From Frankiaceae bacterium (GTDB taxonomy: Bacteria > Actinomycetota > Actinomycetes > BP-191), in NCBI GenBank assembly GCA_030840645.1, contig JAVEEC010000051.1:33326-97325 (forward strand): a DNA stretch of 64,000 nt. Direction: 5' to 3'. The position numbers and the translations under genes are program-made. The notes beneath the pieces are model-generated. The model was not told where the DNA came from, did no database searches, and saw only the letters and a list, made by a program, of their open reading frames with translations. Numbering within the stretch: position 1 is the stretch's first letter; each line of letters opens with the position of its first letter. Shown piece by piece: positions 30,025 to 36,463 of this stretch.

Positions 30025-30027
30025 GCC

Positions 30028-30053
30028 CTACCGCTGGCCGTGGAACAGCTTGT
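30028..30053. repeat. Left copy of imperfect 26-bp direct repeat (candidate attL)
   Basis: ctaccgctggccgtggaacagcttgt; 22/26 identical to 36438-36463. Confidence 0.5.
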
Positions 30054-30070
30054 CTGTCACGGAGAACCCT

Positions 30071-30083
30071 CTCTGACCTGCGG
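30071..30083. repeat. Left copy of 13-bp inverted repeat CTCTGACCTGCGG
   Basis: Exact reverse complement of 36406-36418. Confidence 0.5.
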
Positions 30084-30106
30084 GAACGGCGTATCGGGAT
30101 GCCTCG

Positions 30107-30126
30107 GTGGCAACACCGTGGCAACA
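30107..30126. repeat. Two tandem GTGGCAACA repeats (arm-type-like), 11-bp spacing
   Basis: 30107 and 30118; related copies near the right end. Confidence 0.5.
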
Positions 30127-30194
30127 ATCGTCGCCCGGCCGCCGGTACGTGGCCCGACCCACGCACCCCGGCCACCGTAGCAAGGAGCACGGCC

Positions 30195-30630
30195 GTGACC
30201 GTCAAGAAGTGGAACAGCGACCCGAAGGACGACCGCTACTACGTCCGGCTCTACAACCCGCAGGGCGGTCAGTACAAGAAGATCATCCGCGGGAAGCGCG
30301 CGGCAGAGCTGCACCACGCGGAGATGAAGGCGAAGCTCGCCCGAGGCTCAGTCGCGCCGTCGACCGCCCGCAACAAGACGGTGGACGAGCTGATGACAGC
30401 GATTCTCGACGCGAAGCCGAACCTGCGCGTCGGCACGCGCAGCGGGTACGACAACACGATCCGGTTGCACATCAAGCCGGAGCTCGGCGACCTGAGGGTC
30501 CGCGAGCTCGGCTACCTGACGCTGACCGGGTTCTTCGAGCGGGTCGAGAAGAAGGCGGGCCGCGAAGCGGAGCGTACCGCCGAGTCGCTCGCCCGCGGTC
30601 CTCGCCTTCTCGATGGTCTCGACCACGGTA
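30195..30630 (+). pseudogene. Tyrosine recombinase/integrase N-terminal remnant
   Basis: AAGGAG then MTVKKWNSDPKDDRYYVRLYNPQGGQYKKIIRGKRAAELHHAEMKAKLARG...LGDLRVRELGYLTLTGFFERVEKK (arm-binding/SAM-like region); no catalytic R..HxxR..Y domain follows. Confidence 0.65.
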
Positions 30631-30644
30631 GAGGGGGTGTGACA

Positions 30645-31000
30645 CAGGTCACGAGGGAGTTTCGGGGTTCGTCACGACCGCGCCGATCGCGCGCAGCGCC
30701 TTGGCGCGAACGAGGGCCGACGGGTGGCCGACCAGCGGGAACGCTACGAACAGCGCACTCGCTCGGCGCGTCCATCGTCGTCAGGTTGCTGACGATCGTG
30801 AACGGCGCACGGGCGCCGGGATCGGCGGCGGCGCGTTCGAGCGCAGCGTGGGCGATCAGGTCCTGTTCGCCGTCGGGACTGGCGACTCGGGCGAGGAGCG
30901 CGCTGGCGGCTGCGGACCGAACATCCGGGACGGGGTCCCGCAGCGAGTACGGCGACGTTCGTCGTGCGCGGCGTTTTACTCGCTCCGTGGCAATGCGCAC
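30645..31000 (-). pseudogene. HEAT-repeat-like gene fragment, frameshifted
   Basis: LRDPVPDVRSAAASALLARVASPDGEQDLIAHAALERAAADPGA in one frame, FPLVGHPSALVRAKALRAIGAVVTNPETPS* in another. Confidence 0.4.
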
Positions 31001-31025
31001 CACGCGGCCGTGCCAAGGTGTTGGC

Positions 31026-33137
31026 GTGGAGCCGGAGCGGTTTAGCGGACCGGCCGCCGTCCGCGCGGCGGTCCTTCCGGCGCGCGCCGCGTACCTCGTA
31101 ACTGTCGGCAGCCGCGCGGGCGTGCGCCGCGCTGTCCAGGAGGCATCGACGCGCTGGGCGGGCGCGACCGAGCCGATCATCCCGGTCCGCAAGGGCGGCC
31201 GCATCGATTCGCTGTGGCACCAGGTGCTCCGCGCGGCGAAGGTCGACGGCCTAGTGAACGTCGACGCCGGTGACAGCGGCGACACCTTCGCCGCCGCGTC
31301 GGGCTACACCGTCGTCCCCATCGACCAGATCGATGAGTGGGGTCCGACCGCGGCGTCACCGCACCCAGGGCACGTCGACGGCTTCCAGCAGACGCAGGCA
31401 CCGGTGATCGCGAGCAGCGCCGACGCCCCGCTCTGGGAGGTCGTCGCCGCCGGCGACGTCACCGAGGAGCACCGCGCTTCGTTGTCCCGCGAGATCGACG
31501 TCGGCATGTACCGGCCTGGGCCGGACGGTGCTGCCCGCGCGCAGCTCCGTCGGGGCGACAGCCTCGTTGAGCGGACCGTCGTGCATTTCGAGGAGCACAG
31601 CGCGTTCAATCTCCCGCCGGCCGGACCGGCGGTGGTCTGGGTAACTACGCCTAACGGCGTCCGGGACTGCGTCGCGTTCTGGAACCTCCGCGCGCTGCGG
31701 TCGCTACGGTGGTCGTACGCGCCCATGCTTCTTCTCCCGGACCGCGACGTGGAGCACTGGATCCAGTTCCCCGAGCAGTTCCGCTCCCTCCTCGCCCGGC
31801 CGGCCGAGTTCGCTCCCGACGTCCTGGTCCTCAGCGCGACAGTCCCAGAGGAGAAACGGACCGCGTTGGCTGAACTGCTCGGCCTGACGCGGACATCGGA
31901 CCCGGTCCGTTCCGGCCGATCGGCCTCGCCAACGCTGCGTACGGCGCCGTTCACGTCCCGAGACAACGTCCGGCCGTGGGGCTTCGTCCTCAACGACCGC
32001 GAGTACGGCCGCGATGTCACGACCGAGATGTACGTCCACAACGGACGCGCCTCCGTGCGGATCGCCTCGCCGGTCGCGTTCACCCGCGGCGGTTACGTCC
32101 TGCTGCGCATCACCAGCGACGCGTTCAGCGGCTTGCCGCGACGGTCCGCTGTCGCCAATGCGATCCTCGGCAACGCCACCTGGGCCGGCGACGCGCTCCA
32201 GATCTCGACGCACGCCCGGGACGAGTACCCGCTGAGCCTGTCCCAACCGAGCCTGGCCCAGTGCGTGACGTTTGTGCTGCGCCAGCACACGACCGAGCAC
32301 GCCCTGTCGGACAAGGGGCAGATCGGCGCTGCTCTGCTCGCTGAGATCGACGTGACCCGGCTGCTGGAACCGGGCGTCACTGAGGCGATCACCGCCCTGA
32401 CGACGGAGCGCGCACCCGCGCTACAGCGCGAGCTTCGCCGCGCCCGTACTGCGGGACTGCCGGAAGACGAGATCACCGCGCTCGCCGCGAAGTGGGGAGG
32501 GCGCCATGACCGCCGGCACCGGTCCGCGGCCGAGGTTGGCGACAAGCACGCCGCAACCGCACTCGAAGCGCTCTGCCGCCTTCAGTGCGCGGAGCGCGGC
32601 GTGCTGACGCAGTGCGCACGATGCGGGCTACACCACTTCGTGCCGCTCGCCAACACGAGCGACCGGCCCACATGTCCTGGCTGCCGCGCTGAGGCGCCGT
32701 ACGCGACGACCGACGTTGGCGTCACGATCCGCTACCGGCTCAACTCGTTCATCGACCGCGCCAGCGACCAAGGCGTGATCCCGCACCTCCTCGCGATCGC
32801 GGCTCTGACCCGAAACCACGCGCACACGTACCTGCTCGCTGGCACCAACCTGGCCTTTCACGACGGCTATCGGCCTGAGATCGACCTGTTCGGCACCGTC
32901 GACGGCCGAATCGCGGCGGGAGAGGTCAAGACGAAGGCGTGCGACTTTAGCGACGAGCAGATCGAACGAAGCATCGACCTCGCCACCAGACTTGACGCCG
33001 ACCTCTGTGTCCTCGCTGCCGTCGACGAGGTTCCCGACAGCGTGCATACCCGAGCCGTGAAGGTAGCTGGGCGCGCGGGCGTGGAGCTGATCGTCCTCGA
33101 CCGGACTGATCTTCGGCCGGCGCCCACCAGCGGTTGA
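31026..33137 (+). CDS. Large protein with zinc-ribbon and C-terminal PD-(D/E)XK nuclease-like domain
   Basis: CARCGLHHFVPLANTSDRPTCPGC and RPEIDLFGTVDGRIAAGEVKTKA; GTG start in the 30099-33137 frame. Confidence 0.65.
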   Translation: MEPERFSGPAAVRAAVLPARAAYLVTVGSRAGVRRAVQEASTRWAGATEPIIPVRKGGRIDSLWHQVLRAAKVDGLVNVDAGDSGDTFAAASGYTVVPIDQIDEWGPTAASPHPGHVDGFQQTQAPVIASSADAPLWEVVAAGDVTEEHRASLSREIDVGMYRPGPDGAARAQLRRGDSLVERTVVHFEEHSAFNLPPAGPAVVWVTTPNGVRDCVAFWNLRALRSLRWSYAPMLLLPDRDVEHWIQFPEQFRSLLARPAEFAPDVLVLSATVPEEKRTALAELLGLTRTSDPVRSGRSASPTLRTAPFTSRDNVRPWGFVLNDREYGRDVTTEMYVHNGRASVRIASPVAFTRGGYVLLRITSDAFSGLPRRSAVANAILGNATWAGDALQISTHARDEYPLSLSQPSLAQCVTFVLRQHTTEHALSDKGQIGAALLAEIDVTRLLEPGVTEAITALTTERAPALQRELRRARTAGLPEDEITALAAKWGGRHDRRHRSAAEVGDKHAATALEALCRLQCAERGVLTQCARCGLHHFVPLANTSDRPTCPGCRAEAPYATTDVGVTIRYRLNSFIDRASDQGVIPHLLAIAALTRNHAHTYLLAGTNLAFHDGYRPEIDLFGTVDGRIAAGEVKTKACDFSDEQIERSIDLATRLDADLCVLAAVDEVPDSVHTRAVKVAGRAGVELIVLDRTDLRPAPTSG

Positions 33138-33446
33138 CACACCCCAACTAGGTCGCGACATCGAAGACGCAAGGCTGCTGCGGATCTCGTACACGCGACG
33201 CAGAAATGCCGCACTGATGAGATCGTCAGCGAGTGCCGCTGCTGGACGGGGATGACCTGCCGACGTCACGTTGACCGTCCGGCTCACCGTGTGAAGCGGC
33301 GCACTCGCTAGTCAGGCCGTCGCCGTCGCCGCGTCAGGCCGGTCCTGTTCGGCGCGGACCCGCGCCGCCGGCACTGTCTCGTGCGCCGTTGTCTTCCTCG
33401 GTCCGTCGTGTCTGCGCGGGTGACGGCGGCGGAGCAAGATGGTGTC

Positions 33447-34157
33447 GTGACACGTCCACGGGCAATGGCCGTCGCTGTCGTCGCCGCCCTCGTCGCCGTC
33501 GGGTGCGGCGGCTCGACACGAACGGCGCAGCCCGAGGCGTCGAGCGCGACGCCTAGCCCCACGCCGGTGTCGCCTTCTGCCACGCCCTGGCCCGGCATGA
33601 CGGTGCGGGTATCCCCTTCCCCTACACCCTCGGCCACTTCACGAGCCCGAGCCCCCGTGTCGGATGTGCGGCGCCTGCCACGCATCGTTTTGAGCCTAGG
33701 GTCGGTGCCCAGCGGCTTCGCTTTGACCCTCGACCGGTCGTGGACGACGGACGAGCTCGTCGACCAGGGAACGTATAGCTCGTCCGAATTGCAGGGTTGG
33801 GGCTATCTGGGCGGCTACGAACGGGAGTTCGAGCGTGACAACGAGTCCGACCCCGTCAAGATCTCGTCCGACGCCGGCGCGTACGCCACGTCACAGGGAG
33901 TCGCACGCGCCTTTCAACGGAATGTGACGCTTTGCCAAAACGACGGATGGGATCTCATCGACGCCAACGTCGGGCTCGGCTCTGAGAGCATGCTGTGCGC
34001 TCGGGACGTGAGCTTCCGCGGCTACGAAGCGCGGGTGCACTTCGTGATCTGGTACCGCGGAAGGGTTAAGAACTCAATAGCGGTCACCGCCTTGCTCGGG
34101 AAGAGCACGCCCGATCTCGCGCTGAGGCTCGCCCGGCGGCAGGCCGCGAACTACTGA
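33447..34157 (+). CDS. Putative lipoprotein
   Basis: AVAVVAALVAVGCGGS lipobox, Ser/Thr/Pro-rich linker, soluble domain. Confidence 0.65.
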   Translation: MTRPRAMAVAVVAALVAVGCGGSTRTAQPEASSATPSPTPVSPSATPWPGMTVRVSPSPTPSATSRARAPVSDVRRLPRIVLSLGSVPSGFALTLDRSWTTDELVDQGTYSSSELQGWGYLGGYEREFERDNESDPVKISSDAGAYATSQGVARAFQRNVTLCQNDGWDLIDANVGLGSESMLCARDVSFRGYEARVHFVIWYRGRVKNSIAVTALLGKSTPDLALRLARRQAANY

Positions 34158-35602
34158 AGCTCCGTGAGAAGTTCCTTCAGGCGGCTGTTGTAGCCGCGGG
34201 CGTCGACGAGTCCCGGCCGCTTCATCGCGTATGCCCTGACATCCTTGCCGTTTCGATCTATGATCACGACCCAGTCAATGACCTGCACTTGGTCTAGTGT
34301 GTTAGCCGACCGCCCAGACGCCGCGTAGGCCGCCCGAAGGACGAGGCGAGCAGGGAAGTACGGCGTTGCCGGGTTCGGTTTTCCGGGCATCAGAATGAAA
34401 TCCTGTGTGGCGAATGTCTGAAGTACCTGGTGCGGCTTGCTTTCGTTGCGGATGGATATCGGACTCAAGTAAACGTGGTCGTACAGCCCGCGTGCGTAGT
34501 CGTGCGGCGCTCCAGCCGGTCTGGCGACCGTACCCTCCATCGTCGGAACCCTGGTGCTCTCTGGGCTGAGGAGGGCCTGGATGTCGTAGTTGTCGTCCTC
34601 CGAGTTCCACGCGACCACGAACGGGCGCGGGAAGAGGTTCCGGTCGAGTCCAACCTCAGTCAGCGCGCCGAGGATTTCGTCGCCGGCAATGGCGTTGACG
34701 TCGTGGTACTCGATGGAGTCGAAGGTGAAGCTCTCGGGATACGCGTTGTCCGGCACCGGGCCGGCGTTGGTCTTTTTAACCGCGATCGGATCGAACGTGA
34801 ACACGGGGACGAGACGACCCGATGTGTCCGGGTCATAGATGACTAACCGCCCGTGCGCTACGGGATCATGCCGGAGGACCGCGTCGATAGGCGTGGCGAT
34901 CACGACCGTCGACAGCCCGCCGTCGGGGCGCAGTTGAGCCGTCTCGACCTTGGCGCCGAGGTGGTCCAGAGCCAGAAGGCGAACGATGAGCTTGCGCTGC
35001 GCTTCAGCGGTTGGCACTCGTGGGGGAACGGCAACGGACAGAGCGATTGCGGCGACGAGCAAGGTCAGGGTGAGCCACCGGTGTTGCTGTCGGCGGACAA
35101 CGGGCCGCGAAGTGCGGGGTCGGTTGAGCAACCGCAGCACCAGGGTGACCAAGCGTCCGGTGGCCTCGTCAGCCCTCTTGCCGAATAGGTCGACGACGGT
35201 CAACGACAACAGCGTGCGTCCGCCGCCCAGCTCCAACGCGGGCAGCTCAACGTCTTCGAGCCGGATCGGGATCAGCCACGGCACATCAGGCCGACGCTGC
35301 CGCATCTCATCGAGCGCGAGGTTCAGTTCTTCCCAATGGTGTCCACCACTTCCCAGGCTGGCAGCAGAAAAGCAGGCCAAGAACACCAAGGTGTCCTCAG
35401 TGATGGCTTGACGGATCTTCAATCGCCAGTCCTCACCAGGCCACAGGTCCTTGGTGTTGCGCCAGACGCGGATGCCGGCGTCCTCCAGGGCTCGCTGAAG
35501 CTTGTCGACTGCCGCCGAGTCCGCGGATGCGTAGGACAGGAATGCGTGGCCAATGGGTGCCTGCGCGTCGACAGAGGTCACGGACCGAGGGTACCGATGC
35601 AT
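34151..35602 (-). CDS. TIR domain protein with TM helix and C-terminal extracytoplasmic domain
   Basis: GHAFLSYASADSAAVDKLQRALEDAGIRVWRNTKDLWPGEDWRLKIRQAI, HHWEELNLAL, TM WLTLTLLVAAIALSVAV. Confidence 0.8.
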   Translation of the reverse strand: MHRYPRSVTSVDAQAPIGHAFLSYASADSAAVDKLQRALEDAGIRVWRNTKDLWPGEDWRLKIRQAITEDTLVFLACFSAASLGSGGHHWEELNLALDEMRQRRPDVPWLIPIRLEDVELPALELGGGRTLLSLTVVDLFGKRADEATGRLVTLVLRLLNRPRTSRPVVRRQQHRWLTLTLLVAAIALSVAVPPRVPTAEAQRKLIVRLLALDHLGAKVETAQLRPDGGLSTVVIATPIDAVLRHDPVAHGRLVIYDPDTSGRLVPVFTFDPIAVKKTNAGPVPDNAYPESFTFDSIEYHDVNAIAGDEILGALTEVGLDRNLFPRPFVVAWNSEDDNYDIQALLSPESTRVPTMEGTVARPAGAPHDYARGLYDHVYLSPISIRNESKPHQVLQTFATQDFILMPGKPNPATPYFPARLVLRAAYAASGRSANTLDQVQVIDWVVIIDRNGKDVRAYAMKRPGLVDARGYNSRLKELLTELQ

Positions 35603-35651
35603 CGCGTCCCCCCGCGCCGGGGACCAGACGCATCTCGAAAGGAGCAACGGG

Positions 35652-36149
35652 CTACGCGCCGTTCCCCGGCCCACCGACCCCCCGATTGCCTAGCAGGCGA
35701 CGGACCGTCGCGACGAGTCGGGCAGTGTTCTTCTCGATGTGTTCGCCGAACAAGTCCAGCCGCTGCAACGAAGACAGCATCCGGCCGCCCCCGATATCTC
35801 GGTCGGGGATGTCGCACTCATCGAGTCTGACTGGAATCAGCCACGGCTCGTCGGGTCGGCGTAGTCGCAACTCGTCGGTCGCGAGAACCAGCTCCTCGTT
35901 CTGGTAGCTGCGGTGCCGCGCCACGCTGGCTTTGGAGAAGCAGGCAAGGAACACGAGCGCGTCAGCGCCGATCGCCTGGCGGATCTTTACTCGCCAGTCC
36001 TCACCGGGCCACAAGTCCTCGGTGTCGCGCCAGACCGGGATACCCGCGGCCGCGAGCGTCGCCTGCAGGCCGTCGATCGCGGCAGCATCCTCGCGGACGT
36101 AGGACAGGAACGCGTGCCCACGGGGCGTTGGCGTCGCGGCAGAAGTCAT
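35652..36149 (-). CDS. TIR domain protein
   Basis: GHAFLSYVREDAAAIDGLQATLAAAGIPVWRDTEDLWPGEDWRVKIRQAIGADALVFLACFSKASVARHRSYQNEEL. Confidence 0.85.
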   Translation of the reverse strand: MTSAATPTPRGHAFLSYVREDAAAIDGLQATLAAAGIPVWRDTEDLWPGEDWRVKIRQAIGADALVFLACFSKASVARHRSYQNEELVLATDELRLRRPDEPWLIPVRLDECDIPDRDIGGGRMLSSLQRLDLFGEHIEKNTARLVATVRRLLGNRGVGGPGNGA

Positions 36150-36306
36150 GTACGGAGTATTACGCCGACATCGTCGCGCTCCCACTCGTGTTCGGCGACG
36201 AACCAGTACGCCTGCTGCGACCGGTCGGCCCGACCGTTCAGGTCTGGCCTATCCCGACGTCGCGTCAGAAGCCGGACGCACGATGGTTCAAAGCACCCAC
36301 GGCCTC

Positions 36307-36357
36307 GTGGCAACACTCATGGCACGAACGGCTCGCGTGGCACGACCCGTGGCACGC
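36307..36357. repeat. TGGCA[A/C] repeats (arm-type-like) near right island end
   Basis: gtggcaaca 36307, atggcacga 36319, gtggcacga 36337, gtggcacgc 36349. Confidence 0.5.
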
Positions 36358-36405
36358 TTTTTCCGTCGCCTGCCGTCGGCTACCATCGCCAGCCGACGCA
36401 TGTTT

Positions 36406-36418
36406 CCGCAGGTCAGAG
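36406..36418. repeat. Right copy of 13-bp inverted repeat CCGCAGGTCAGAG; related CGCAGGTCAGG at 36428
   Basis: Reverse complement of 30071-30083. Confidence 0.5.
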
Positions 36419-36437
36419 CGGGTACACGCAGGTCAGG

Positions 36438-36463
36438 CTACCTCTGCCCGTGGTAGAGCTTGT
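36438..36463. repeat. Right copy of imperfect 26-bp direct repeat (candidate attR)
   Basis: ctacctctgcccgtggtagagcttgt. Confidence 0.5.

Follow-up and report, generated by a model that had tools for sequence, protein, structure and literature searches.

A CARF-nuclease-like protein on a mobile island of a Frankiaceae bacterium, a candidate stand-alone immune effector

RESULTS

We analyzed a 64,000-nucleotide stretch of one contig from a Frankiaceae bacterium (here, the window), in which a 6.4-kb island carries a gene for a 703-amino-acid (703-aa) protein together with two TIR genes, a lipoprotein-like gene, and the remains of an integrase (Table 1). The genes that flank the island are 6.5 kb apart in the window and 1.35 kb apart in the congener G001, where other small genes lie between them. 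GC content drops to 63% within the island, and GC3 is 0.77 to 0.85 there versus 0.95 to 0.98 in the flanking genes; because of this atypical codon use the island genes were missed by the first gene caller, and the gaps were filled by open reading frame (ORF) length. The reading frame of the integrase remnant (30099 to 31025) yielded no catalytic domain in a Pfam scan, and we saw no link between the 258-aa lipoprotein-like protein and the mechanism discussed below. The two TIR proteins are 58% identical to each other, and their genes, the only TIR_2 genes in the genome, lie 1 to 3 kb from the 703-aa gene. A preliminary description, made from the DNA letters by themselves, had reported neighboring TIR genes and integrase debris, and the domain searches confirm both, as TIR_2 domains and a truncated integrase N terminus.

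Table 1 Features of the island and of the 703-aa gene (positions within the window)
Feature	Position	Strand	Basis
Island absent from congener G001	30027..36445		Flank spacing; GC and GC3 drop
Truncated integrase N terminus (debris)	30099..30631	+	Phage_int_SAM_3 E 2.4e-4, Arm-DNA-bind_4 E 0.009
CARF-nuclease-like gene (whole)	31026..33137	+	ORF and translation, homologues, purifying selection
N-terminal Rossmann-like segment, W(A/G)G..(N/E)PIIPV motif, aa ~12-80	31059..31265	+	Beta-alpha-beta-alpha-beta in model; motif in 16-sequence alignment
Middle Rossmann-like domain, VxDxxxxWNLRA motif, aa ~200-290, putative CARF-like sensor	31623..31895	+	Homologue model, Foldseek, motif
Zinc ribbon C530-C533...C550-C553	32613..32684	+	Four Cys invariant in 16 relatives
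PD-(D/E)XK nuclease domain, aa ~570-696	32733..33113	+	Model topology, Foldseek, Card1/Can2 profile alignment
Predicted catalytic E618-x-D620	32877..32885	+	Aligned with NELDV of VC1899 (E291/D293)
Predicted catalytic E633-x-K635	32922..32930	+	Aligned with ECK of VC1899/Can2/Card1
258-aa lipoprotein-like protein, island cargo	33381..34157	+	ORF; weak DUF2749 match only
TIR protein, putative membrane segment and about 300-aa C-terminal region	34151..35674	-	TIR_2 E 7.2e-21
Short TIR protein, 177 aa	35652..36185	-	TIR_2 E 2.7e-19

In DNA of 72% GC, long ORFs arise frequently by chance, so the ORF is no proof of a gene by itself; the proof comes from homologues. The 703-aa protein shares 68% amino acid identity with a homologue in a genome of the same genus (G002; dN 0.23, dS 0.87, dN/dS about 0.27) and 37% identity, across 97% of its length, with a homologue from Embleya. 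These two relatives bear out the gene as originally called, and the dN and dS values against G002 show that it is under purifying selection. Between the congeners, conservation is strongest in the Rossmann domain and not in the nuclease. The start at the GTG codon at 31026 (the stop codon occupies 33135 to 33137) is supported by the onset of DNA similarity to G002 about 20 bp 5′ of it (position 31006), and by the VEPERF start and similar sequence just upstream that the two genes have in common. The mechanical ORF in this frame encodes 1,012 aa, being open upstream into the integrase remnant, and this openness is due to chance: a single 1,012-aa fusion protein was rejected, as the G002 homologue begins at the same point without an integrase part.

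The island is absent from G001, and G002 retains a remnant: a contig of G002 (C37) that matches the far flank of the window preserves the last ~79 bp of the 703-aa gene and 54 bp downstream at 91 to 92% identity. The gene has therefore been gained and lost, as defense genes are, and the G002 site is likely a variable hotspot. The complete G002 copy sits on a different contig, next to a DUF6615-like gene. Each of these sites has further genes around it. The remnant (L016:8897-9026) lies beside a 1,436-aa protein with a weak PADLOC match to OloB and a 507-aa protein that matches no Pfam family. The DUF6615-like protein (L011:10964-12094; Pfam E 4.7e-5, just under the cutoff), directly upstream of the complete copy, may be a second nuclease. 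At the island-free site of G001 (L114:3204-4556), we read by eye an ORF resembling a PIG-L-type deacetylase and a small peptide that contains Cys and looks like a RiPP precursor.

We aligned 16 diverse relatives to identify the conserved features of the protein. All 16 sequences have the four cysteines of the zinc ribbon, Y570, D620, and E633, and E618, D214, R222, and P371 are nearly invariant; two motifs, WGG..(N)PIIPV near the N terminus and WNLRA in the middle, are further marks of the family. The two CxxC knuckles and the D...ExK signature noted in the preliminary description are thus present (C530/C533/C550/C553 and D620...E633-x-K635) and conserved in relatives. K635 is found in 14/16 sequences and is T in the other two, the divergent members L036:736-3198 and L037:8093-10120, where the lysine of ExK may have been replaced or moved.

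Fold prediction and profile comparison assign the C-terminal domain to the PD-(D/E)XK fold with high confidence, and nuclease activity is predicted. An AlphaFold model of the window protein, built from 11 sequences, is good in the C-terminal third only (mean pLDDT 52, about 80 over residues 620 to 690), where the order of strands and helices is that of the PD-(D/E)XK core. The Micromonospora homologue gave a better model overall (pLDDT 71, with about 90 over the nuclease and mostly 78 to 91 over the middle Rossmann domain), and both models contain the alpha-beta-beta-beta-alpha-beta core at pLDDT of about 80 to 90; the models have different first sequences but share most of their alignment and so are not independent. 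Against the PDB, Foldseek matched the window model best to 1xmx (VC1899; 6.8e-6), with Can2 entries at ranks 2 to 10, and all 13 of the 13 best matches of the Micromonospora model belong to the CARF-PD-(D/E)XK (DUF1887) group (1xmx 4.9e-6, Cdn1 4.2e-5, Card1 2.9e-4, Can2 8e-4). In profile-profile comparison, the C terminus scored 27.1 against the Card1/Can2/VC1899/Cdn1 nuclease, versus a maximum of 14.5 among 30 column shuffles. This alignment, obtained independently of the models, sets EIDL...GEVKT on NELDV...IECKT, so that E618/D620/E633/K635 fall on E291/D293 and ECK of VC1899 and the E-x-D plus E-x-K active site is matched. The E-D and E-K pairs are the residues mutated to inactivate Can2 and homologues (PMC7969007).

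The same comparisons point, with somewhat better than even confidence, to a CARF-like sensor ahead of the nuclease. Most Foldseek alignments exceed 500 columns and therefore include the domain that precedes the nuclease, and their domain order and span fit a CARF domain followed by a nuclease in one chain; the full-length matches have low TM-scores and large rmsd, meaning that the domains match one after another and not as a single rigid body. Sequence comparison detected no CARF similarity, and the nuclease alone aligned with the single VC1899 sequence, so the CARF-like assignment is one of predicted fold. A sequence search against the PDB gave weak matches only, mostly to ribosomal zinc ribbons, and the best Foldseek matches in a viral library were restriction endonucleases. 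The nuclease that the preliminary description had proposed, with structure prediction as its check, holds up in both topology and matches, and the putative sensor and the resemblance to Card1, Can2, and VC1899 had been missed there.

The 703-aa protein matches nothing in Pfam, NCBIfam, or PADLOC, and its relatives gave nothing beyond weak scores against Pfam and PADLOC. Card1_endonuc (PF09002) had no match to the protein in a Pfam scan at E<=5 and none elsewhere in the genome; it was also absent from 150 genomes of the phylum and from control genomes, a result informative for this genome only. By membership the protein is not DUF1887, and at most it works like one. The family is described in no database that we searched, though it may be mentioned in the CARF-domain classification literature (NAR 2020). 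We found about 30 homologues in partial samples, and roughly 2 to 3% of sampled actinobacterial genomes have one; counts that include this genome, where the gene is single copy, are 8/398 for the phylum and 13/396 for the class. Homologues occur in Oerskovia, Subtercola, Micromonospora, and Roseateles and, in a broken form, in Saccharothrix. Plasmids of Embleya, Rhodococcus, Streptomyces, Bradyrhizobium, and Photobacterium also carry homologues, as does a Sphingomonas plasmid, where the gene is split. The family reaches Pseudomonadota as well as actinobacteria. An annotated phage collection and a single-protein search of genome contigs returned no relative. Most members have 700 to 800 aa, and five homologues (L030, L013, L035, L034, and L043) are split into two reading frames, an N-terminal part and the rest, which may reflect sequencing error, decay, or true two-gene forms.

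Homologues lie in varied surroundings. The Micromonospora homologue adjoins Gabija (GajA/GajB) and TmtA, and that of G513 adjoins the type I restriction genes HsdR/HsdS. In G387 the neighbors are a Schlafen-type gene and a ThsB-like TIR; in Oerskovia, a Fic-domain ORF and an OLD-like ATPase; in Bradyrhizobium, an Abi-family gene and the toxin-antitoxin pair PrlF-YhaV; and in Rhodococcus, HTH+PIN. Tyrosine recombinases accompanied by DUF6262 stand near the homologues of Embleya and Rhodococcus; the loci of G218 and Saccharothrix and the downstream side in Oerskovia look ordinary. In Subtercola, the homologue has a TIR/PDC-S65-like gene a short way upstream, and a YhcG nuclease is encoded downstream of it. 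This Subtercola TIR protein (L031:2817-4292), encoded on the same strand as the homologue, matches the PADLOC candidate PDC-S65 over its C-terminal part (E 2e-21); it is 52% identical to the short TIR protein of the window and belongs to the same subfamily. Neighbor proteins matched more PADLOC models than controls did (352 in 147 proteins versus 148 in 143), an excess that supports a defense context without proving one, since these are model totals and not per-protein values and the controls also contain strong matches (DISARM-like helicases and others). The 703-aa gene is mobile island cargo whose relatives are often found beside defense genes. Occurring sporadically on plasmids and near recombinases, toxin-antitoxin genes, and defense genes, the homologues show no consistent placement within housekeeping loci; together with the predicted nuclease fold, this supports the proposed immune effector as a candidate.

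We searched for a source of an activating signal, covering two kinds of synthase, Cas10 and SMODS. The Cas10 palm domain was not found in this genome or in 17/20 homologue genomes (present in 3/20), nor was SMODS in this genome or in 14/20; in the six with SMODS it is on a different contig from the homologue, except in G610, where the distance is about 1.85 Mb. The usual sources of cyclic oligonucleotides are thus mostly missing and are not the general activator. TIR genes occur near 5/28 homologue loci and 0/16 control loci, a difference that is not significant by itself. TIR as a constant partner was not upheld, with 23/28 loci having none nearby, and a TIR-made messenger is possible but not general.

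DISCUSSION

Type III CRISPR is the setting in which CARF nucleases are mainly known: they form its execution arm and are activated by Cas10-made cyclic oligoadenylates. Can2, Card1, and Cdn1 resemble the present family in placing a sensor, putative in the present family, before a PD-(D/E)XK nuclease, as judged by fold comparison, and in having the same catalytic residues by alignment. Unlike it, they are activated by cA4 and act in type III CRISPR with cyclic oligoadenylate from Cas10, and they have neither the extra N-terminal Rossmann-like segment nor the Cys4 zinc ribbon. VC1899 (PDB 1xmx), a DUF1887 CARF nuclease that is an orphan without type III CRISPR (PMC7969007), is the best fold match of both models and has the E-x-D...E-x-K nuclease; at about 380 aa it lacks the N-terminal extension and the zinc ribbon and shows no family-level sequence match. 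CBASS effectors differ in having a linked CD-NTase, whereas the SMODS search found none beside the homologues and none in this genome.

We estimate a probability of roughly 0.55 that the 703-aa protein is a stand-alone immune effector of the CARF-nuclease type, activated by a signal outside CRISPR and with putative antiphage activity. Under this model, the CARF-like Rossmann domain in the N-terminal half would sense a small molecule, probably a nucleotide, that is produced or set free in the course of infection; binding would rearrange the protein, probably a dimer, and so activate the metal-dependent C-terminal nuclease at E618/D620/E633/K635. The activated nuclease would cut nucleic acid, either DNA or RNA, and thereby stop growth of the phage or of the cell, while the zinc ribbon may help to hold the substrate. 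A role in defense is probable; that the activator is a nucleotide messenger is a more tentative proposal, to which we give slightly less than even odds.

Direct recognition of invading DNA is an unlikely alternative: a restriction-like or sequence-sensing nuclease would bind DNA or a protein ligand through its Rossmann and winged or zinc parts and cut without any second messenger. The pairing of a PD-(D/E)XK core with a zinc ribbon, as seen in restriction-like nucleases, suits DNA binding, and the viral-library matches, the absence of both synthase kinds from the genome, and the lack of a constant partner gene among homologues are all in keeping with it. Yet neither a methyltransferase nor another self-protection gene is constantly linked, both models match CARF nucleases better than restriction enzymes, and the strongest conservation between congeners lies outside the nuclease. 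A nuclease of DNA repair, replication, or mobile-element maintenance, carried as cargo of integrative elements, is less probable still. Tyrosine recombinases, insertion sequence elements, and plasmids are frequent around homologues, and some loci look ordinary, but no single recombinase or replication gene is constantly cotransferred, and the repeated company of unrelated defense and toxin genes argues against this reading.

A special case of the signal-activated CARF-nuclease model is a pair resembling Thoeris (ThsB TIR plus ThsA), in which the TIR neighbors would produce an NAD-derived messenger upon infection that opens the CARF-like nuclease. As in Thoeris, TIR genes stand beside a putative Rossmann-sensor effector, here with the genome's only two TIR genes next to its only copy of the 703-aa gene, and the related TIR gene directly upstream in Subtercola, together with the higher TIR count at homologue loci, fits such a pairing. 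But the effector here is a predicted nuclease, with no Pfam or PADLOC match to the SIR2-SLOG domain of ThsA; the linkage is inconstant, failing even for the close G002 copy; the window TIR genes lie on the opposite strand; and defense genes cluster anyway. We therefore regard the pair as improbable, and hardly less so the broader proposal that the nuclease is opened either by a TIR-made NAD-derived messenger or by a second messenger not yet described. If true, the TIR case would be a Thoeris-like immune pathway with a DNA- or RNA-cutting effector, not driven by cyclic oligoadenylate.

With its roughly 30 members, this family is covered by none of the profile libraries searched and is missed by present defense annotation. 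A family spread sporadically on plasmids and islands, with the same apparent layout and without Cas10, would show that fusions of a sensor to a nuclease function outside CRISPR. It also offers a concrete approach to the question of how VC1899 and other orphan CARF nucleases are activated.
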